From a virus: a stretch of DNA of 25,927 nt. How positions within the stretch are numbered: the stretch's first letter is position 1; the number at the start of each line of letters is the position of its first letter. Of the stretch, positions 335 through 14,294 are shown one piece after another. The position numbers and the translations under genes are program-made. The stretch covers positions 1 to 25,927 of IMG/VR virus record IMGVR_UViG_3300035682_000173; one strand, 5' to 3'. The notes below the pieces were generated by a model. That model was not told where the DNA came from and did no database searches. It saw nothing but the letters and a program-made list of their open reading frames with translations.

Positions 335-523
335 TTAGTGAATTGTTTCATTTAATTTCGGAGTTAAAATATAGCCAGAATTAGTTTCAATTGGTAGTTT
401 AGCAATTTCTTCTGGTAGCATATCTCTTAAAGATCCTACTACATGATTGCATGTAACTAATTGATCTTCTGTGGATACCATTAAATAACCTAAGTCCGAA
501 ATATAAACCTTTGTGATTTTCAT
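335..523 (-). CDS. Small hypothetical protein, 62 aa
   Basis: A 62-residue product beginning MKITKVYISDLGYLMVS. It looks like a compact, largely beta protein with alternating hydrophobic residues in its first half; I do not recognise the family. Its ATG at 523 shares one base with the TAA of the upstream gene (TAATG), which argues for this start and for coupled translation. There is no signal peptide or membrane segment. Function unknown. Confidence 0.65.
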   Translation of the reverse strand: MKITKVYISDLGYLMVSTEDQLVTCNHVVGSLRDMLPEEIAKLPIETNSGYILTPKLNETIH

Positions 524-921
524 TACATAGTTTTGCGATCCATAAAGTCTTGCATAGACAATACGTATCTTCTTATTTTTCTAAGTTCTTCATCATCCTC
601 TTTTTTCTGGCCAGTTGGAACGTCTCCTGATCCAAAACGACCAGTTGTCATATCAGGTAATAAGACCGCTCCAGCTCCAGTGATGCTACTAGGCGTTACA
701 CCTATTCCAGCATCCATTCCTGAATATTCATCAACTTTGTCGGGTAAACCTTCGTGTGGAGTTGATGCAAAATCTTTTAGTTGCTTAAGAGTCATGCTAG
801 AAACAAGTTCTTGAACTTTGTCCCGATACTCTGCATCAACTTCTGAAAGTTCTAGTTCGCCTTTTTTAACGGCGTATGCAACTCCCATTAATCTTTGTTG
901 TGTTTTACTTGTACTTGGCAT
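523..921 (-). CDS. PSTSK/QQRLMG-type small phage protein (DUF3008-like), 132 aa
   Basis: The frame is open upstream to an ATG at 1017, but I place the start at 921. From there the protein begins MPSTSKTQQRLMGVAYAVKK, the conserved opening of a widespread short phage protein family that I know as DUF3008-like. The family pattern continues: PSTSK..QQRLMG, a Lys/Glu helix, then M(T/S)..Q.KDFAST.H.GLP.KV, here around residues 43-64. The longer start would add 32 unrelated residues and would run through a strong hairpin (939-964), so it is unlikely. The C-terminal half is a Gly/Asp-rich linker followed by a charged helix. The family's role is unknown; members occur among structural genes of T4-like phages. 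The stop overlaps the next start by one base. Confidence 0.8.
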   Translation of the reverse strand: MPSTSKTQQRLMGVAYAVKKGELELSEVDAEYRDKVQELVSSMTLKQLKDFASTPHEGLPDKVDEYSGMDAGIGVTPSSITGAGAVLLPDMTTGRFGSGDVPTGQKKEDDEELRKIRRYVLSMQDFMDRKTM

Positions 922-935
922 AATGTTGTTATAAT

Positions 936-964
936 AAAAAAGAGCAGCTTTAGGGCTGCTCTTT
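936..964 (-). terminator. Hairpin plus T-rich tail: rho-independent terminator candidate
   Basis: Minus-strand reading gives a perfect 10-bp stem, AAAGAGCAGC and GCTGCTCTTT, with a CCTAAA loop, then TTTATTATAA. It sits 28 bases after the stop of the 992-2479 gene and 18 bases before the true start of the next gene, the right place for a terminator of the 992-8781 group. The T tract is short and interrupted by A. Because a GATATATA box overlaps the stem's upstream edge, it may instead be a 5' hairpin on the next transcript. Confidence 0.7.
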
Positions 965-991: not shown

Positions 992-2479
992 TTACCAAGC
1001 GATGTCCATCTTCTCAAACTTAGCTACTCTTTCTTTAATACTTAGAGCATATTGTTTAAGTTCTCTTTCGTAATAACTACCACTATAATCATCTTTCTTA
1101 GAATTTTCTTCAGCTGTTGTAAATCTAGCATAATCATCCATGATGTTTCTTAACCAATTAGCAACATCAGATAATTTAACTTCTCTATCTCTTGGATCTG
1201 TACCAGCGATAATATCACCGTATTGACCCATTTTCTTTTCTTTAATTGCATTTTTGATAAGATCAGTACCGTCTTCAATAGCTTTTTCAATCATCTTGTC
1301 GATAGTTTTATCGCCTTCAGTTAATCTTTTTGCAATAATAGCTTTGTATCTGTTTACGTTTTCTTCCTTGATTTTCTTAGGATCTAATAATGCGGTTGCA
1401 CCTCTTCTAGCTGCATCTCTATTATTTGTTAAAGTACCTGTAGAAAGTCTTGCTTGTAAAGCATCAAGATCAATTACATACGCAATATCAGCTAATTCAG
1501 CAATTCTCTTTACGTTGTAAAGTCCTGAAGCACCGTAACCTCTGTAGTTTTTATTAATACCAACACCATCTCCTGACGCAGACATTGTCTTTTTTCTATC
1601 AGCTGAATAACCTCTTCCAGACCAACTAGCACCCATGAATTCGTTTTGACCATTTGCAACACCTAAGATAGTGTCTGGTGCAAGATTTTTCTCATTAGAC
1701 CATGCACCTGAATCAGCATAAGGATTTTCTTTTGCATTTGTTACAACGTAAAATACTAATTCTTTACCCGCCTTTCTTTTGTAAGCTCTACTAGGATCCA
1801 TTGATAAAATGTCAGTGTCTTCGATTTGATCTAAAGCAATTTTAGTGTAACCATAGATATACTGCAAGAAATCTTTAGGAGCGTATTTCATATCGATCAA
1901 TGAAGATAAGATTGAAGACTTAAGAGCTTCATTTATTACTGATTCATAGATTTCAAAGCCATCTGCTTTGATTGCTTTTTTAGCTTTACTTAATTCAACT
2001 GCATTTTTTGCTTTAACTACCATTTCTTCTGAATCTAATCCAGGTTGCGCAGTTGCATCAACTCCAGCCTTTTTTAATACGCTTTGGATGTAATCCACAT
2101 CGTCTTCATCTGTATTGTAATCAAATGAAAATAATAATGATTTTGCTTCGTTAACTTCTTCTGATTCGTTAATGTGAGAAAGTACTTTAGAACCATAAGA
2201 TGATAGTGTTACACCTTCTTCAGATACACTAAAGTATCTAGCGTTTCTGGTTAACCACTTCTTAGAATCAGCCGAGAATTCATTGATGATAGTTTTAAAA
2301 TCTTCGTGAGATAATTGGCCATCTTTAAGTGCAGCTAAAACTTTATTTCTAACTTTGGTTTCTTTAATTGTAGTTACAGCTGCATTTGAGCCGTATTGTC
2401 TTTTAAGAACAATTTTGCCTTCGTCGATCTTATTATAACCGTTGTTTACAAAATCTTCAAATGATTCAAAAATTTTCAT
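992..2479 (-). CDS. Hypothetical protein with capsid-targeting-like leader, 495 aa
   Basis: No family recognised. The protein opens MKIFESFEDFVNNGYNKIDE followed by GK. The leader resembles the N-termini of T4 internal head proteins (T4 IPIII starts MKTYQEFIAEA), and I18-D19-E20|G21 fits the T4 prohead protease rule (I/L)xE|(A/G/S). Further sites of this type lie at I103-N104-E105|S and I182-N183-E184|A; they bracket a probable alpha/beta domain (about 112-184). The larger C-terminal part (about 190-495) is mixed, with a Gly/Ser-rich stretch at about 280-315 (SWSGRGYSADRKKTMSASGD), an RR-containing helix and an acidic helical end. It is the last gene of the 992-8781 group, preceded by a GATATATAGAAAAACA box and followed by a terminator-like hairpin. 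I infer an internal virion or prohead protein. Confidence 0.75.
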   Translation of the reverse strand: MKIFESFEDFVNNGYNKIDEGKIVLKRQYGSNAAVTTIKETKVRNKVLAALKDGQLSHEDFKTIINEFSADSKKWLTRNARYFSVSEEGVTLSSYGSKVLSHINESEEVNEAKSLLFSFDYNTDEDDVDYIQSVLKKAGVDATAQPGLDSEEMVVKAKNAVELSKAKKAIKADGFEIYESVINEALKSSILSSLIDMKYAPKDFLQYIYGYTKIALDQIEDTDILSMDPSRAYKRKAGKELVFYVVTNAKENPYADSGAWSNEKNLAPDTILGVANGQNEFMGASWSGRGYSADRKKTMSASGDGVGINKNYRGYGASGLYNVKRIAELADIAYVIDLDALQARLSTGTLTNNRDAARRGATALLDPKKIKEENVNRYKAIIAKRLTEGDKTIDKMIEKAIEDGTDLIKNAIKEKKMGQYGDIIAGTDPRDREVKLSDVANWLRNIMDDYARFTTAEENSKKDDYSGSYYERELKQYALSIKERVAKFEKMDIAW

Positions 2480-2497
2480 TATAGTATTGTTTTGTTT

Positions 2498-2513
2498 TGT
2501 TTTTCTATATATC
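2498..2513 (-). promoter_or_regulatory. GATATATAGAAAAACA box (putative phage promoter)
   Basis: The minus strand reads GATATATAGAAAAACA, entirely within the 38-base gap upstream of the ATG at 2479. All 16 bases match the box at 8803-8818, and the 3' half matches that at 10331-10343. I infer a -10-type element, with transcription starting in the A-rich tract. Confidence 0.5.
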
Positions 2514-2517
2514 AGGA

Positions 2518-3993
2518 TTATTTCCCCATTTCATATCCTAGTCCAGCATTGAATGTTGAACTACTTCCTCTTGCAACAAATTTTGCCGCTGGTATACTGC
2601 CTGAGCTTGTTCCTAGGAATTTAATTAAGTCATTACGTAAATCAATAGTTAGATACATTTGTTTAACTACCAGTAGTTTATTAATGATTGTTGCTAAATG
2701 TCCTCTGTAATATGTATTTAAATTACTAACCACTTCTACTGCAAGTGGATAATAAAACTCATCTCCTTTTTTGTGTTTAATAATATCTTCTGGAGATTCT
2801 GGTTTCGTTGGAGCTGTTCCACATTTTGTCCAAAATGTGCCCATAAAGTCTTCATACTTTTCTGGATCTTTTGCAAGTTCCATTATAAATGATAAAATAT
2901 CTTTTCTAGTTAATTTAGTGGCAGAATTTCCTGATACATTTAAAAAATGCTCGAATCCAGAGTTTTTCATTTTTCCAGTACTCATCAGTGTATTTGCTAT
3001 TTGAATATAAACTTCTACTGATGGAAGTTGACCACCTTTCTTAATGGTTTCCATATCTAACAAAATATTATAAAGTTCTGTTTCTGCTTCACTAAGTGCT
3101 AAATCTAAACCGCTATTTGCATGAATTGCACATGCTTTAACAATTGCATCAATCCCAGGTCTTCCACCTCCTTTTGCTGCTTTAGATGATACATTCCATC
3201 CGTCAACCCATAAATCTGAAAGAGCTTCATTTTGTGCAGATGGGAATTCCAATCCACTTCCAATATCTTTAATTACAGTCAATAGATATACACCATCTAG
3301 GATTTCACCATAATCATTTACAATATTATTTAAAGATTTGGCATCAATATTACTATTTGAAGATAACTTAATAGTTTCTCCAGATTTTCCAGCGTCAAAA
3401 TATGATTTCATATTATCATATTTAGCCGTTGAATTATTTTTAACGTCATGTGCTAAAGATATTAAAAATTGTTGAGTACCTTCGCTAATACTAGTATACA
3501 TTTTAATATTACCTTCAATAACATTAATTAAAGAATTAACATCTTTAAATATAATGCCACTAACTCCTAATTTAGCTGGAGTCAAGTCTTTTTTACCAAT
3601 TTCTTGGTTTCCACCAGAATCTAATTCAACGGTTGAGTTAGTAACCCACGATTCTATACCATCTGTTGATGTTATTTTATAAGAAGCATAATCATTTGAA
3701 CCTAAATTCTTACCTTGTCTAACTTGTCCTTTTGCAAAATATTCAATTGCAGATACTGTTTTACCAGCATCAGCATACATACTTTTAATATTAGCTTCAG
3801 CCGTTCCATCTAAATCTGCACCAAATGGGGCTCTAATCATTTCTAATGATTTTGTTCCTTTCGGTTCTCCTAAACCTACTACTTTTCGGTATGAATCAAA
3901 ATATACTTGTTTTTCTTTAGTTGGAGCTTTTGCTTCGTACAAAGCCATTGCGTGTGCGAATCTTGCTCTAATATCTCCGTAAGTTTGTGCCAT
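2518..3993 (-). CDS. Hypothetical protein with leader-like N-terminus, 491 aa
   Basis: No family recognised. The N-terminus MAQTYGDIRARFAHAMALYE then AK carries an L18-Y19-E20|A21 site, at the same position as in the 992-2479 product and matching the T4 prohead protease rule. Residues 21-160 are mixed alpha/beta with a DSGGNQEIGKKDLTPAKLGV segment; the rest is largely helical. A Gly-rich segment (KAAKGGGRPGID) lies near residue 275, and the C-terminus is Ser/Gly-rich. The K.LTP.KLG pattern occurs in some nuclease-like proteins, but I cannot support a nuclease call. The start codon shares one base with the stop of the ligase/NMNAT gene (TAATG). I infer an internal head or cargo protein; the function is unknown. 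Confidence 0.7.
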   Translation of the reverse strand: MAQTYGDIRARFAHAMALYEAKAPTKEKQVYFDSYRKVVGLGEPKGTKSLEMIRAPFGADLDGTAEANIKSMYADAGKTVSAIEYFAKGQVRQGKNLGSNDYASYKITSTDGIESWVTNSTVELDSGGNQEIGKKDLTPAKLGVSGIIFKDVNSLINVIEGNIKMYTSISEGTQQFLISLAHDVKNNSTAKYDNMKSYFDAGKSGETIKLSSNSNIDAKSLNNIVNDYGEILDGVYLLTVIKDIGSGLEFPSAQNEALSDLWVDGWNVSSKAAKGGGRPGIDAIVKACAIHANSGLDLALSEAETELYNILLDMETIKKGGQLPSVEVYIQIANTLMSTGKMKNSGFEHFLNVSGNSATKLTRKDILSFIMELAKDPEKYEDFMGTFWTKCGTAPTKPESPEDIIKHKKGDEFYYPLAVEVVSNLNTYYRGHLATIINKLLVVKQMYLTIDLRNDLIKFLGTSSGSIPAAKFVARGSSSTFNAGLGYEMGK

Positions 3994-5828
3994 TATATCT
4001 TATTTATAAATTGTTCAAATGTCATTACACTTTCGTTTGCATTTAATGATACTTCTAATTTTTGTTTAAGTTCATCGTACATTCCGTGTAGTGATTTTGG
4101 TACTAGCTTTTTGAATAGGTTATACTCGTCGTCTAACATACTGTTTCTAACTTGCGTTGCAGAAATATCATCATCACCTCTTTTAATTTCATGTAAACCA
4201 AAATCAGCTCTAACATTAAGTTCTTCTCTGTACTTGTCATTATCAACCATGTAACCGTATGCTTTCATTCTGTCTGTTCCTGTACCCCATAAAACTGGTT
4301 CGTAATTAGGTCTAAGTTGATTAAACATAGTATCGATTGCAGCTGAAGGAACTACGATCACCTCTTTTAAGAAAGGATATTCCTTTTGTACTTTGTTAAA
4401 CATCTCAATTTGAGTGTCTGTGTCATAAGGTCTTTTAGCAGCGTCTTCTTTTTTAACTGTCTTAGATTTTACTAAGAATACAATTACTGGAAAGCCATTA
4501 GCTTTATTTAAAGTTTCTAATACTTTAACGTGACCTAATGTAAATGGTTGGAATCTACCAACAAAAATATTTACGGGCTGTGCACCTTGATCTTTATAGT
4601 CAATCTTTAGGGCTTCACTAACGTGAGCAACTGGAGAAGACTTAATTGATTTTTGTCTGCTATATGAACCAAAATCTAGGACTTCAGTTTCAGCAACTTC
4701 TTCAAGAACTTTTGATTCAATCTTTTTAACAATATCATTCATCATCGACATCATATCAGTTGAAATAATATCTGTTTCTTTGTTTCTAATCTTTCTATAA
4801 GATCCTAATAAGATTTTAAAAAGCTCAGCAATAACTGGATTTTCAACATATCTTAGGGTCTTTTCATTAGAAATAAATTTGGTATTTAAATTGAAGTCTT
4901 CGCCTACTGCAAAATCAGCTGGATCAAAATTAGCTCCAATAAATTTATGTGAATTGGTTTTAACGTAATCATTAAATACATTTGACATTAATTCAAGATA
5001 ACGAGCATCTTGAGTTTCTGCTTGTAAAATATTATCGCTAAAGTTATAATTGCTTAAATATGTGGTCATGTCCAAAATTGTAATTTGGTACATATCACTT
5101 GGTTTTCTGTCAATTGGCTCGTTGATTCTTCTGAAATCTTCTAACTTATAAGAATCATAATTGTTGCCATTGACGAATGTCAAGATTAAACCATCGATGT
5201 CAGAATCTAATGACGTATTTAAAGCAGATGAAAATGCATCTGGTTTAAACATATTGTACATAAAACGTGTAAATGACTCGCTTTGGAATCTCTGGCTGAA
5301 CGCTTTATCGTTTGACGATAAAACCTTAGTCAATTCCTCTTTAGAGTGATCCATCATCAGGCCATCAAAAAGGATTGGGGGATTTTCTACTTCTAAGATC
5401 TTAGCCCACTTTTTCAAAACAACAGGATCAATAATTACTTTCTTAGTCTTACGACCATTCATTATCATGATATGTGTTAGAACCAAAAAGTTTTTAGGTA
5501 GTCTATCGTATTCAATATTAACAGGACTGACATTTGGCAAATAGTCAAATCCAAATTTCCAATCTTCTGGCATTGCATAAAGAGCCTCTTCTGAAATTGA
5601 CTGCATTTGCTTGATAGCTTTCTCATAATATCTAATAATAGTTCTGTCAACCAGATCCATAGGTTCTGTTTGATTTGACTTAAAATAGTGTAATTTATCA
5701 CCTACCTTTTGGCAGTGAAAAGAGCTTGCAGCTAATTTTTCTGTAACAAGTACTCTGGACTTTAATAATTTATTAAAATCCTCTAAATTACTTTCAGCAA
5801 AGTGGTCTCTAAGTTTTTTAATTGCCAT
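3993..5828 (-). CDS. Ligase-like nucleotidyltransferase fused to NMNAT-like adenylyltransferase, 611 aa
   Basis: Two enzyme domains are visible. Residues about 20-250 look like the ligase/covalent nucleotidyltransferase fold: motif I is TEKLAASSF (K31 the candidate AMP-accepting lysine, but KLAA replaces the usual KxDG), a motif III-like WKFGFDY at 90-96, motif IV DGLIL at 212-216 and motif V YKLED at 227-231. Residues about 418-590 are a nucleotidylyltransferase of the NMNAT type: GRFQPFTLGH at 424-433 (a (H/T)xGH signature) and ISATQVR at 555-561, the second ATP-binding motif. NMNAT joins ATP and NMN to make NAD; related domains use other substrates. A helical linker (about 330-415) contains V403-S404-E405|A. 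The tail ends A597-N598-E599|S then VMTFEQFINKI, which resembles the leaders of neighbouring proteins. Substrates are inferred; an RNA or DNA ligase role for the first half is not proven. Confidence 0.82.
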   Translation of the reverse strand: MAIKKLRDHFAESNLEDFNKLLKSRVLVTEKLAASSFHCQKVGDKLHYFKSNQTEPMDLVDRTIIRYYEKAIKQMQSISEEALYAMPEDWKFGFDYLPNVSPVNIEYDRLPKNFLVLTHIMIMNGRKTKKVIIDPVVLKKWAKILEVENPPILFDGLMMDHSKEELTKVLSSNDKAFSQRFQSESFTRFMYNMFKPDAFSSALNTSLDSDIDGLILTFVNGNNYDSYKLEDFRRINEPIDRKPSDMYQITILDMTTYLSNYNFSDNILQAETQDARYLELMSNVFNDYVKTNSHKFIGANFDPADFAVGEDFNLNTKFISNEKTLRYVENPVIAELFKILLGSYRKIRNKETDIISTDMMSMMNDIVKKIESKVLEEVAETEVLDFGSYSRQKSIKSSPVAHVSEALKIDYKDQGAQPVNIFVGRFQPFTLGHVKVLETLNKANGFPVIVFLVKSKTVKKEDAAKRPYDTDTQIEMFNKVQKEYPFLKEVIVVPSAAIDTMFNQLRPNYEPVLWGTGTDRMKAYGYMVDNDKYREELNVRADFGLHEIKRGDDDISATQVRNSMLDDEYNLFKKLVPKSLHGMYDELKQKLEVSLNANESVMTFEQFINKI

Positions 5829-5838
5829 TTTATATTCT

Positions 5839-7113
5839 TTATCTTCCGTATTTAATGATTCCCATTAATTGGTTAATCGCTGCGAAAGTTCCAGTTAGTT
5901 TATAAATTTTACCTTTGTATTTAAATACTATACCTTCAGTAGGCATAATTGATTCAATTCCGCCGATTCTATCTAATCTAGCTAATTCCTTTTCAACTTT
6001 ATCTATCTGACTTAAATCGCCGTTGGTTTTGATCTTACCAGCTTCTGTGCTAATTTGATTGTGTAATCTTTGAGCTTCCACACTTGGGTTTAAGGCCAAT
6101 AAGTTTGAAACGTTTTTAAGAATAGTAGAACCTAATTCCAAGAATATATCTTCGAATGGTCTAATGTTTTCTTTTTGCTTTGATTTTAAATCTTCTTTGT
6201 CAAATTTATCAAAGGCTGCTTTTTCTTCTGGAGTAACTTGTTTGGCAATATCTCTAATGTTTAAAGTTTTCTTATCATCATAAGCCCATCTCATTAACAT
6301 ACCGTGTTTTAAGTTAGCATCAACATTTGGAAACATTGCTTCAATTTCATCTTTCCACCACATTTCATGATATTTAGAAACTGGTTCGTTTTCACTTAAA
6401 CTGTATTTTGACTGTAAAGCATTGATTTTACCCAAAAAGTAACCTTTCTTTTCTTCAAAATCAGGAATCTTGTTGATATTAAGTTCTTGTGGAGGTATAA
6501 TAGTAAATGTCTTTTGAACGTGTGTGTTTGTGTCTTGTAAAATCTTAGCAAGATCTTTAGCAGCTTTTGAATTTGTTGTACCATCTTCAATAGTTACAAT
6601 ACCGTGGAATTGAATAACATCTCTGTTGTAAGCAATTACGTTGGCGTTTCCAGAATAGATTAGCTCCATATTCATGAATGCTTTACCATTTTGAAAGAAA
6701 TCTTCTTGTGTTTTAGCAGGCAATCTTTGTAAAGAACCAGCTAAATCTTGAGCAGCAAATGTAAATGTATCTCTTACCGCTTCTGATGCATGATTAGCAA
6801 ACATAGAAACTAAAGCTATTAAATCCAATGGGGTTGATAACTGTCCTTTATTTCTGGCAAACATTACTTTACCATCAATCATAGTCACAAATAGATTTTG
6901 ACCATCTGTTTTTTCAGTTGGTGCTTCTTCAAAGTTTAAGTCACCTTGTAATCCTCTATCAACAAACATTTTAAAGTCTGCAAATGTCAAAGAGTTATCA
7001 TCGAATGGATGCATCATGTGACCTGCAGCTCCACCTTCCATAACAAGATTAAAAGCAGAATTAGTAAAATTCTGCTTTTCTGTTATGTATTCTGTTAATG
7101 TTAATAGTTTCAT
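5839..7113 (-). CDS. RNA/DNA ligase-like adenylyltransferase, 424 aa
   Basis: Motif order fits the ATP-dependent ligase superfamily. Motif I is EKTDG, with K68 the candidate lysine for the enzyme-AMP intermediate, followed by FARNKG (R87). A motif III-like MELIYSG segment lies in the middle of the protein. Motif IV is TEGIVFK at 392-398 and motif V is YKLTG at 404-408. The N-terminal GGAAGHMMHPFDD (27-39) precedes the catalytic core; I recall a similar GG..GHM.HPFD opening in ligase-like proteins of other large phages. There is no obvious C-terminal OB domain, so it may be a minimal ligase or RNA-repair enzyme. The leader MKLLTLTEYITE holds an I10-T11-E12 site, and V24-M25-E26|G27 would release a protein starting at the conserved GG. 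It lies 10 bases upstream of the ligase/NMNAT gene, so the two nucleotidyltransferases are probably co-expressed. Confidence 0.85.
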   Translation of the reverse strand: MKLLTLTEYITEKQNFTNSAFNLVMEGGAAGHMMHPFDDNSLTFADFKMFVDRGLQGDLNFEEAPTEKTDGQNLFVTMIDGKVMFARNKGQLSTPLDLIALVSMFANHASEAVRDTFTFAAQDLAGSLQRLPAKTQEDFFQNGKAFMNMELIYSGNANVIAYNRDVIQFHGIVTIEDGTTNSKAAKDLAKILQDTNTHVQKTFTIIPPQELNINKIPDFEEKKGYFLGKINALQSKYSLSENEPVSKYHEMWWKDEIEAMFPNVDANLKHGMLMRWAYDDKKTLNIRDIAKQVTPEEKAAFDKFDKEDLKSKQKENIRPFEDIFLELGSTILKNVSNLLALNPSVEAQRLHNQISTEAGKIKTNGDLSQIDKVEKELARLDRIGGIESIMPTEGIVFKYKGKIYKLTGTFAAINQLMGIIKYGR

Positions 7114-7131
7114 TATAAGAATTGTGTTTAT

Positions 7132-8781
7132 TTATTGGCCTAAACCAGATGTTAACATACCGATTGCGGCACCGAAATCACCTTCAGCTTTAGCTAAAAT
7201 ACCATCAATAGTTTCTTTTGCTTTAGCTTCATCATATTCTGCACCGAAAGCTTTCTTTAATATTTCTTGAGCATATTCTGTGAATTCTTCTTCTGAATTA
7301 ATTTCAGCTTCTGACATATCAACTGATTCTTCAATTTTCTTAGCAGCTAATTTAGAGTCTTTCTTAGCAACATTGTCTGTATAAGAACCTTCTCCCCAGA
7401 ATGCTACGATGGCATCTGTATCTGCTGTTGAATTAAATCCAGAACCTGCATTAAAAACATCTACGAATTGTAAACCTTTTTTGTTTTTAATTAATTCTTT
7501 AGCAAATTCCATTGCTTGCTTTTCGTTACCGAATTTTTTAGCAGCTCTTACGCCATCAGAATAGTGTACTTCAAAACCTTCGCTTACTTCAACTGACTCA
7601 ACAGCCAATTCAAGATCTTTGTCTTTACCAGCAACTGCAGCATCTAATTCTTTCTCTAAAGATTTTTTAACAGCTGTTTTCTCTCTTAATGTTGCAACTA
7701 ATGCCTCTTTGGCATCACCTTCGGCAGCTTTCCATTCTTTAGCAAGTTCAGCCATTTCGCCTGTTACTTTTGTCCATTCATTTTGGATCTTATTAATAGA
7801 TCTAGCTTCTAAGATTTCTTCAGCTTCTGTTACTTTAAAAGTTTTACCTTTAAATTCAAACTCGTCTTTTTCGTCTTCTTTAGCTTTAGTTACAGCAGCA
7901 CCGAATGCATTACCTTCACTAGCTTTGATTGTTTTACCTTCGTAAACACCTTCGAATTCATCTCCAATTTTATATGCGATATAATCAACACAATCTTGAA
8001 ATTCAAAACCTTCAGTTTCAACTAAGTCTTGGATAAGTACTCCAGCAACGTCTAACAATTGTTTCATTTCTTTAATAAGAACTAAACCATCCATTCTGCT
8101 AATAGCTGATCTTGAGATAGCTTCGTTAGTATCAAATGCTATGTTACTTTCAAATATTTGTAAAGTTTCATCTTCATAAGTATCCATGAATAACCACTTT
8201 GCAGTAGTTTCATCCCATAAATAAAGAAATTCTGCGCCACCATCATTTTTAACATCACTAACAAACTTTCTAAGATTGTCAACTTTACCAGTCATGATTG
8301 CATTTCCTTTTTCGCCTCTGTCTCTTCCGTAGAAACAAGCTGCGTCATAATCAGGATTGTTAAAATCATTTTTAGCAGTGATTTTCTTTCCTAAGAAAGA
8401 AATACCAGCTTTACCTAATTTTAAAAGTTCTTTGGCTTCTTTTCCACCATTATTTCTTAAGAAATCACCAGCTGATGAAACTGATCCATAGTGAACATAC
8501 GTAGTTGTAATTTTACCAGATTTGTCAAGAGTACCAATTTGACCTCTTGTACCTTCGTTAATAATAAATGTAGAATCAATAGACTCAACTAATTTAGAAA
8601 AGAATTGATTTCTCTTTTCTTCTTCTAATTCGCCTGGACTAGCAATACCGAATTCTTTTAAAAGTGAATTATATCTTTCAATAGATTGAGATTGCTTGTT
8701 TGAAACTTCTTTTAACTGCTTCATTTTGGCAGCCTCTTCTCTTACTTGAGAGAATGATTTGAATGTATGGAGTTTTTCCAT
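7132..8781 (-). CDS. Hypothetical modular acidic protein with leader-like N-terminus, 549 aa
   Basis: No confident family. The N-terminus MEKLHTFKSFSQVREEAAKM fits the leader pattern of this gene group. A segment at 77-135 (GTRGQIGTLDKSGKITTTYV) recalls a small phage domain with a T.YVH.DG pattern. Residues about 327-400 are a highly charged, probably coiled-coil helix. The C-terminal 64 residues (EEFTEYAQEILKKAFGAEYD to SGLGQ) look like a separate helical module. Protease-type sites fall near apparent domain borders: I74-N75-E76|G, I323-L324-E325|A and I483-E484-E485|S. It is the first gene of the 992-8781 group, behind a GATATATAGAAAAACA box. A prohead core/scaffold role or an internal-protein role both fit; the coiled coil and acidic composition would suit a scaffold, but the length is greater than T4 gp22. 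Confidence 0.7.
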   Translation of the reverse strand: MEKLHTFKSFSQVREEAAKMKQLKEVSNKQSQSIERYNSLLKEFGIASPGELEEEKRNQFFSKLVESIDSTFIINEGTRGQIGTLDKSGKITTTYVHYGSVSSAGDFLRNNGGKEAKELLKLGKAGISFLGKKITAKNDFNNPDYDAACFYGRDRGEKGNAIMTGKVDNLRKFVSDVKNDGGAEFLYLWDETTAKWLFMDTYEDETLQIFESNIAFDTNEAISRSAISRMDGLVLIKEMKQLLDVAGVLIQDLVETEGFEFQDCVDYIAYKIGDEFEGVYEGKTIKASEGNAFGAAVTKAKEDEKDEFEFKGKTFKVTEAEEILEARSINKIQNEWTKVTGEMAELAKEWKAAEGDAKEALVATLREKTAVKKSLEKELDAAVAGKDKDLELAVESVEVSEGFEVHYSDGVRAAKKFGNEKQAMEFAKELIKNKKGLQFVDVFNAGSGFNSTADTDAIVAFWGEGSYTDNVAKKDSKLAAKKIEESVDMSEAEINSEEEFTEYAQEILKKAFGAEYDEAKAKETIDGILAKAEGDFGAAIGMLTSGLGQ

Positions 8782-8802: not shown

Positions 8803-8818
8803 TGTTTTTCTATATATC
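8803..8818 (-). promoter_or_regulatory. GATATATAGAAAAACA box (putative phage promoter)
   Basis: The minus strand reads GATATATAGAAAAACA 22 bases upstream of the ATG at 8781. It overlaps the last codons and the TAG stop of uvsW (GAT ATA TAG). It is identical over 16 bases to the box at 2498-2513. It likely drives the 992-8781 group separately from uvsW. Confidence 0.5.
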
Positions 8819-13272: not shown

Positions 13273-13929
13273 TTAGGTTTGGACCAATTTAGACCCAACT
13301 AAGTGATTCAGGAAATAAGCGTCAATTAAGTCATCAAGGGGTTTCGGCACTTTTTTGCAAACTCCCAAAGTTTTAACAAACTCAAAAATAGGATGAGACT
13401 CAAGATTTGGATCGTTCAAACAATTTTCTAAGAATTTACCCCATAGTTCATCTTTCTTCATATTACCCTTACCAGCATGTTTCTTGATAGTTGAAGGGGC
13501 AATAGTCATAATATCTTTAGGACCTATGGTATTTATAATCTCTAATTTTAGGATAGCTGCTGCGGCTGCCATGTCAATAATGTTATTTGTGCCAGCACTT
13601 GATCCGTAAGAAGAGCCTTCAAAAGCAAATAAGTATGGATCTTCCCACCTGGTGTGAGTTAAGATGATATTAATAATATCCTTTGAGATGGTCTTGTATT
13701 TTAAGATCTTTGCAAGTTCTCCTTCTGAAAATTCAGTTTGAGCTGCAAAGTTTGGTTGTTTAACCATCACACAACCTTCTAAGATTGACATGTCGTCTTG
13801 CATCTTTTGTTCTGCCTTCGTTCCCGTTTTGGGTTTTAGGTAAGAAACAAAAATGTAATTCTGGTCAATGGTGTTGTAAATACAAATTCCTGGGGAATTT
13901 ATAGAGAAGTCAATTGAAACTATGTTCAT
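13273..13929 (-). CDS. RuvC-like Holliday-junction resolvase/RNase H-fold nuclease, 218 aa
   Basis: The fold is suggested by the N-terminal beta strand VSIDFSINSPGICI with D7, a second acidic strand FAFEGSSYGSSAG with E104, and a C-terminal KPLDDLIDAYFL with D199, D200 and D203. This D...E...DD/D layout and spacing fit RuvC-family resolvases, where the acids bind two metal ions. An Ala-rich helix (120-128) and PSTIKKHAGKGNMKKDEL (145-161) also fit; similar PS..KK...GKG.(A/M)KK segments follow the E strand in phage RuvC-like proteins. It probably cuts branched DNA during recombination or before packaging. T4 uses the unrelated endonuclease VII (gp49), so this may be a functional substitute. 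The start overlaps the previous stop by one base. Confidence 0.8.
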   Translation of the reverse strand: MNIVSIDFSINSPGICIYNTIDQNYIFVSYLKPKTGTKAEQKMQDDMSILEGCVMVKQPNFAAQTEFSEGELAKILKYKTISKDIINIILTHTRWEDPYLFAFEGSSYGSSAGTNNIIDMAAAAAILKLEIINTIGPKDIMTIAPSTIKKHAGKGNMKKDELWGKFLENCLNDPNLESHPIFEFVKTLGVCKKVPKPLDDLIDAYFLNHLVGSKLVQT

Positions 13930-14294
13930 TAAATTACGCGTGAACCAAGAGCAGAGCCTAAGGCAGCTCCAACTAATCTTGAGGTTAAAAGATCAAATAA
14001 AACGCCAGATTGTATGCCTAATACATTAGCGATAACTTTACCAATTGATTTACCTAATGCAAATCCTGTAAGTCCTCCTAAGATACTTCCTAAAAAGCCT
14101 TCATTAGTAATTTCTTCGTTGAATCTTTCCAAATCAATTTTACCAGACTCATCAGTGTATTGCTTTAACCATTCTGAAATAGCAGCATCAACCTTTGACT
14201 CTAATTCAGGAGACCATTCTTCCTGTAGGGCTTCATTTAAAGCCTTGATATCGGGATTAACGGTTTCTTGTAAGTGTTCAATGAATGTTTTCAT
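13929..14294 (-). CDS. Leader-bearing glycine-zipper protein, 121 aa
   Basis: The N-terminus MKTFIEHLQETVNPDIKALN closely resembles the capsid-targeting leader of T4 internal head proteins, with L8-Q9-E10|T and L19-N20-E21|A22 as cleavage candidates. Residues about 25-65 are an acidic helical region. Residues about 66-121 are strongly hydrophobic and Gly-rich (GFLGSILGGLTGFALGKSIG, then GALGSALGS-like repeats), a glycine-zipper pattern common in membrane-inserting proteins. One reading is a small internal head protein that inserts in a host membrane on ejection; a tail-associated or membrane toxin-like role is also possible. It is transcribed just ahead of the RuvC-like gene. Confidence 0.7.
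   Translation of the reverse strand: MKTFIEHLQETVNPDIKALNEALQEEWSPELESKVDAAISEWLKQYTDESGKIDLERFNEEITNEGFLGSILGGLTGFALGKSIGKVIANVLGIQSGVLFDLLTSRLVGAALGSALGSRVI

Follow-up and report, generated by a model that had tools for sequence, protein, structure and literature searches.

Predicted head-packaged enzymes and apparent polyproteins behind T4-style capsid-targeting leaders in uncultured T4-like phages

The closest described system is that of phage T4, in which the internal proteins IPI to IPIII and Alt carry a capsid-targeting sequence (CTS). For IPIII the first 10 residues suffice, with residues 4 and 7 mattering for targeting and residues 8 and 10 for processing, and the head protease gp21 cuts after L/I-x-E (PMC9026906). 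Because the CTS has been suggested to allow T4-like phages to package a variety of proteins (PMC9026906), the principle of such loading is already known. T4 itself packages a handful of internal proteins, and what IPII and IPIII do is still an open question (PMC9026906). Both of the latter proteins start with MKTYQEFIAE|A, and within T4 itself the product of gene 61.1 (L235, positions 467-631) has a CTS-like start, MKTFKEFIKE. Two further systems resemble the locus described below. In the giant phages phiKZ and SPN3US, many head proteins are cut after a Glu-containing motif by a diverged relative of gp21, and a large load is ejected (PMC9026906, PMC10052503). The polyvalent proteins of phages and conjugative elements (PMC5512222) are multidomain, are predicted to enter with the DNA, and have been compared there to polyproteins.

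The window (the whole stretch of DNA analyzed) is a 25.9-kb virus fragment in which genes A to E all lie on the minus strand. Upstream of this block are UvsW, a UvsY-like gene, and other T4-like phage genes; the head genes are absent from the window. Our main reading, to which we give a probability of about 0.8, is that the tagged products are late-expressed cargo packaged in the head by an enlarged version of the T4 internal-protein system. What is new here, beyond the known CTS principle, is the scale and the architecture. The genes concerned are as follows.

Gene A, 992..2479, minus strand: 495 aa; predicted leader plus three modules; its own GATATATA motif at 2506-2513
Gene B, 2518..3993, minus strand: 491 aa
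Gene C, 3993..5828, minus strand: 611 aa; RNA ligase 2-like half plus NMNAT-type half
Gene D, 5839..7113, minus strand: 424 aa; predicted RNA/DNA-ligase-type nucleotidyltransferase
Gene E, 7132..8781, minus strand: 549 aa; multimodule protein
Gene F, 523..921, minus strand: DUF3008 protein; start ATG at 921 set by homology; GATATATA at 964-971
Gene G, 13929..14294, minus strand: small glycine-rich protein, MKTFIEHLQE...LNE21|A

A sequence-only reading of this DNA had proposed that several products of the block begin with capsid-targeting leaders followed by protease-type sites. The terminal elements of the five proteins are as follows.

A residues 1-20, 2420..2479, minus strand: predicted leader, cut at IDE20|G21
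B residues 1-20, 3934..3993, minus strand: GDIRARF-type putative leader, cut at LYE20|A21; [LIV]xE|[AS] in 13/13 relatives
C residues 600-611 (..ESVMTFEQFINKI), 3996..4031, minus strand: C-terminal leader-like tail, conserved in relatives
D residues 1-26, 7036..7113, minus strand: predicted leader with sites ITE12|K and VME26|G27
E residues 1-76, 8554..8781, minus strand: predicted prodomain (HTFKSF...) ending at INE76|G; phrog_1987 aligns from residue 77

Judged by its conservation, the leader of D is real and the strongest case of the block. MKLLTLTEYITE|K...VME|GG lies where it had been placed, and the expectation that homologues would keep leader and site was borne out: (V/I/L)xE|GG is present in 74 of 74 relatives, behind a leader that varies in length and sequence (used as a query, D recovered 74 loci in IMG/VR). 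In the structure model of D, a helix occupies residues 6-13 and pLDDT falls below 50 at residues 19-21 and 23-33, around the cut. A genome scan for D returned one short stray contig. One D relative (L196) sits on a contig of 4.5 kb assigned to a Rhodospirillales MAG and is probably phage DNA that strayed there. The leader of A, MKIFESFEDFVNNGYNKIDE|GK, is also in its proposed place and, by sequence comparison, is real; in relatives of A a GKIVLKRQY-type module begins directly behind a Glu, whatever stands before it. In the case of B, MAQTYGDI...ALYE|AK was found as described with its site kept in the relatives, but the GDIRARF leader is not of the F..F type, and we regard it as plausible. This stretch resembles the N terminus of the major capsid protein, SEIRATW, from which it may be copied. 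The leader of E appears weaker than those of A and D: MEKLHTFKSF is present at the start of the protein, but no E|A site is adjacent to it, the first sites being LVE66|S and INE76|G. For C the proposal needs correcting: an N-terminal leader is absent, and what the relatives conserve is the C-terminal leader-like tail. A TFEQFI-type tail ends 31 of the 36 C relatives and in four more is fused to a downstream domain, against a background of 23 of 1,141 ORFs, and in three relatives C runs on into B with the tail element in between. The tail is modeled as a short helix following a disordered linker, and no strictly conserved cut site was seen in it among the relatives. A [LI]xE|[SGA] site is common in relatives of gene G.

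Two of the products are enzyme-like. The ligase motifs KTDG, EGxVF, and KLT of D are invariant in 25 sequences, and RNA/DNA ligases make up nearly all of the top Foldseek matches of its model (best E = 2.8e-3, probability 0.97, TM-scores about 0.2); when the D profile was searched against PDB sequences, no ligase matched and the hits were weak and unrelated. We regard D as RNA/DNA-ligase type by its motifs, with a weak predicted fold match to RNA ligases. Comparison of the modeled N-terminal half of C points to RNA ligase 2 (2hvr; E = 4.9e-7, probability 1.00). In the window, however, ligase motif I has degenerated to EKLAASS (part of the relatives have KxDG), and for this reason the ligase half may be inactive in the window phage. 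The C-terminal half contains an NMNAT-type nucleotidyltransferase domain:

C residues 415-597, 4038..4586, minus strand: NMNAT-type nucleotidyltransferase domain with GRFQPFTLGH and ISATQVR motifs

In this half TxGH and SATxVR are invariant in relatives, PF01467 scores above its cut-off, and the modeled fold matches NMNAT structures at a target TM of about 0.7, with PPAT structures matching too. Going by the models, C would join an RNA ligase 2 fold to an NMNAT/PPAT-type domain. Gene B matched no known family or structure.

The related contigs show that the earlier reading, while well supported as to capsid targeting, was too narrow in scope, as one leader tags many unrelated proteins in each relative. 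Seven related contigs contain 104 leader-bearing genes, against about 4 expected by shuffling, and the mature parts behind these leaders fall into 53 unrelated groups. In IMG/VR, the exact DNA pattern of the strict leader recovered 83 ORFs, whose mature parts form 32 unrelated groups. The leaders are 69% identical and the following 30 residues 7%, figures to be read with the pattern itself fixing residues 7, 10, 11, and 13 (residue 6 in part only). Among the proteins so tagged in relatives are a stand-alone NMNAT-type protein and Acb1 (anti-CBASS)-like proteins (PF23474; 30 bits for one of them versus a curated cut-off of 27, both HxT motifs kept). Homologues of the same enzymes in Maribacter phage Molly, Stenotrophomonas phage Moby, and LR756508 are without the leader, so that it is a separable add-on. 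A relaxed leader pattern has one match in T4 and one in P-SSM2, and none in Syn9, Lak-B5, Mel-JY01, or LR756508. More than 10 leader genes stand in tandem at 193196-200277 of one related contig (G001), including GNAT-like, Acb1-like, and Zeta-toxin/AAA_33-like ones.

The leader residues F7, F10, V11, and E13 have the same spacing as T4 CTS residues 4, 7, 8, and 10. Finding a gp21-like protease elsewhere in the genome had been named as a check, and an S77 (gp21-type) protease with the motifs GELDHP and ISSR is indeed encoded in related contigs of 95-256 kb, 10 of the 13 long ones having it; none is found in the window, but since this is only a 25.9-kb fragment its absence there is no evidence either way. 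In relatives the protease is joined to a scaffold-like region in which [ILV]xE[AGS] is dense (9-15 sites versus 2.3-3.8 in shuffled sequence). The two parts form one ORF of 602-736 aa (604-715 aa in G009, 1353-3212; G001, 51569-53383; G004, 114741-116735; and G005, 96060-98207), as against two genes in T4. Between portal and protease the relatives have a gene that starts with MKTIKTFEQFISE|A or similar, i.e., with the leader, at the position of the T4 core genes 67 and 68. The CTS-like spacing, the conserved sites, and the protease of the relatives lend good sequence-level support to the proposal that such products are targeted to the capsid and processed in the gp21 manner.

A short promoter-like motif precedes both A and the E-D-C-B gene run:

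GATATATA, 2506..2513, minus strand: late-promoter-like; 26 bases from motif to the ATG of A
GATATATA, 8811..8818, minus strand: before the E-D-C-B gene run; 29 bases from motif to the ATG of E

It occurs six times in the window, always on the coding strand, with 1.9 occurrences expected over both strands; the sites include those before A, before E-D-C-B, before F, and before the giant fiber gene. In relatives most copies stand 20-35 bases ahead of genes for tail sheath, tail tube, protease, portal, and giant fibers, and we infer that GATATATA is a predicted late promoter. The T4 late promoter TATAAATA was considered and set aside, being rare; the group uses another motif. Two other motifs, GTATATTTAC in G001 and TTGCCTATA in G005, stand mostly before small genes and are perhaps early promoters. 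A GC-rich hairpin with a T-run (AAAGAGCAGCCCTAAAGCTGCTCTTTTTT, window positions 922-960) separates the ATG of gene F from its GATATATA copy at 964-971, and a DUF3008 relative of gene F in G004 (88724) ends with KTFEQFIFEKLNPSIKDK, a second instance of the leader-like element close to a C terminus.

The earlier reading anticipated leaders on A and E but overlooked their polyprotein-like build. It is seen in the following parts.

A residues 111-184, 1928..2149, minus strand: middle module, bounded by the sites VNE111|A and INE184|A; homology boundaries at 109 and 180
A residues 185-495, 995..1927, minus strand: C-terminal domain
E residues 326-401, 7579..7806, minus strand: module bounded by the sites ILE325|A and VSE401|G; homology boundaries at 323 and 393-407
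E residues 402-491, 7309..7578, minus strand: module between VSE401|G and MSE491|A; recurs in A-type proteins, e.g., L036
E residues 492-549, 7135..7308, minus strand: module that in L063 follows a leader of its own (MARLLGFNDFLNE...)

In a further relative (L060), a leader plus E module 326-401 forms the start of a separate gene. Protease-type sites number seven in A, against 1.8 in shuffled sequence (2 of 2,000 shuffles reach seven), and eight in E, against 3.0 (18 of 2,000 shuffles reach eight); UvsW, the gp32-like protein, and the fibers have no clear excess over shuffled sequence. Across 62 A-, B-, and E-type proteins, 113 of 173 well-supported module starts, as placed by the ends of local alignments within Glu-rich linkers, lie near protease-type sites, against 31 at random positions. 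The reversed motif is moderately enriched as well (38 versus 18 expected), and replacing Glu with Asp or Lys gave no excess at the module boundaries of these 62 proteins. Because modules shuffle at protease-type sites, we take A and E for multiprotein precursors, i.e., for apparent polyproteins. The C-terminal domain of A matched no known family above cut-off and no PDB structure; a Terminase_2 match to A was weak, fell below its cut-off, and was rejected. As a fuller picture, which we favor slightly, shuffled-module polyproteins tagged at the N or C terminus would be packaged in the head and cut in the prohead into ejected effectors, alongside dozens of singly tagged enzymes (RNA ligases, NMNAT-type, and anti-CBASS-like proteins).

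Mechanistically, an amphipathic leader of the form x-F/Y-x-x-F/Y-[ILV]-x-E would dock each precursor onto the prohead core. Cleavage past [ILV]xE by the S77 head protease would follow. Cutting at the intermodule sites of A and E inside the head would release several separate proteins, D would be freed from its leader, and C would be docked via its C-terminal tail. The mature proteins would remain in the head and, as a guess, be ejected with the DNA into the next cell, where they might repair RNA or blunt host defense ahead of phage gene expression; the DNA repair and NAD restoration put forward in the earlier reading are guesses as well.

An account on which the leaders serve head assembly only, tagging prohead core or scaffold proteins that are cut, are mostly lost at maturation, and have no role in the next cell, seems to us unlikely. 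It draws on the T4 core proteins, which gp21 cleaves and which are for the most part lost (PMC9026906), on the leader gene that occupies the place of genes 67 and 68 in relatives, and on one acidic leader protein resembling prohead core proteins. The tagged set as a whole, however, is unlike scaffold, including conserved enzyme-type proteins (ligase-type D, NMNAT-type, Acb1-like, kinase-like, GNAT, and ATP-grasp) and spanning 53 unrelated families. We consider it considerably less probable again that the leader is an address to somewhere else in the cell, such as the membrane or a replication compartment, with the E|A pattern a by-product of a conserved amphipathic helix. The spacing of the tested T4 CTS residues, a leader-bearing gene located between portal and protease, the cut motif between modules, and the late-type promoter motif all speak against such an address, even though not every leader has A, G, or S after its Glu (60 of 104 do, and 21 have K) and Lak-B5 and Mel-JY01 have T4-like capsid proteins with no match to the relaxed pattern.

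The slimmest chance goes to shared 5' ends that spread as DNA, in the manner of a start-region or promoter cassette, and have no role at the protein level. Such spread would fit the tight tandem runs of leader genes, e.g., at 193-200 kb of G001. Against this, 36% of same-residue codons differ between leaders, and this synonymous variation implies selection on the protein rather than on the DNA; the element is also found at C termini and between fused domains, and the reversed DNA pattern yields almost nothing. We therefore retain packaging in the head as cargo as the preferred reading. If it is true, uncultured T4-like phages, as a large group, inject dozens of proteins marked by a 13-residue tag that can be found from sequence, and phage-injected proteins become a question for genome searches. 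It would also supply candidates for action before phage gene expression (RNA repair, NAD, and CBASS) and an example of polyproteins processed in trans by the head protease. Neither a packaged ligase/NMNAT set nor a packaged Acb1 came up in the part of the literature searched, a negative that weighs little.

Relatives of individual proteins occur in other phages. The uncultured phage LR756500, with 17 matches to the leader pattern, has a D relative that keeps MKFLKSYEEFLNENLILE|GG, and in Microcystis phage Mel-JY01, which has no leader-pattern match, the D relative is fused, an NMNAT-like domain being joined to it through IIAE|GG. The leader-bearing Acb1 match (PF23474) belongs to relatives, the gene not being in the window, and its homologues in Molly and LR756508 are leaderless. 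Of the described systems, phiKZ and SPN3US differ in that the phiKZ motif is S/A-x-E rather than the [ILV]xE seen here, and the literature consulted on these phages describes no F..F leader common to many unrelated enzymes. With the polyvalent proteins A and E share a multidomain architecture; A, B, and E have no Pfam match to typical polyvalent domains or to an embedded peptidase. Polyvalent proteins often have peptidase domains of their own and differ in their other domain content, whereas A and E would be cut in trans by the head protease. The likeness to IPI to IPIII and Alt of T4 lies in the aromatic pair three residues apart, the [ILV]xE site, the S77 protease, and the unrelated mature parts behind one leader. 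Set against the T4 CTS, the main leader type here is longer (13 residues against 10), a contig has as many as about 25 leader genes, the putative C-terminal targeting tail of C is without close T4 precedent, and the system combines enzyme-type cargo and this leader-like tail with apparent polyproteins that have cut sites between shuffled modules.
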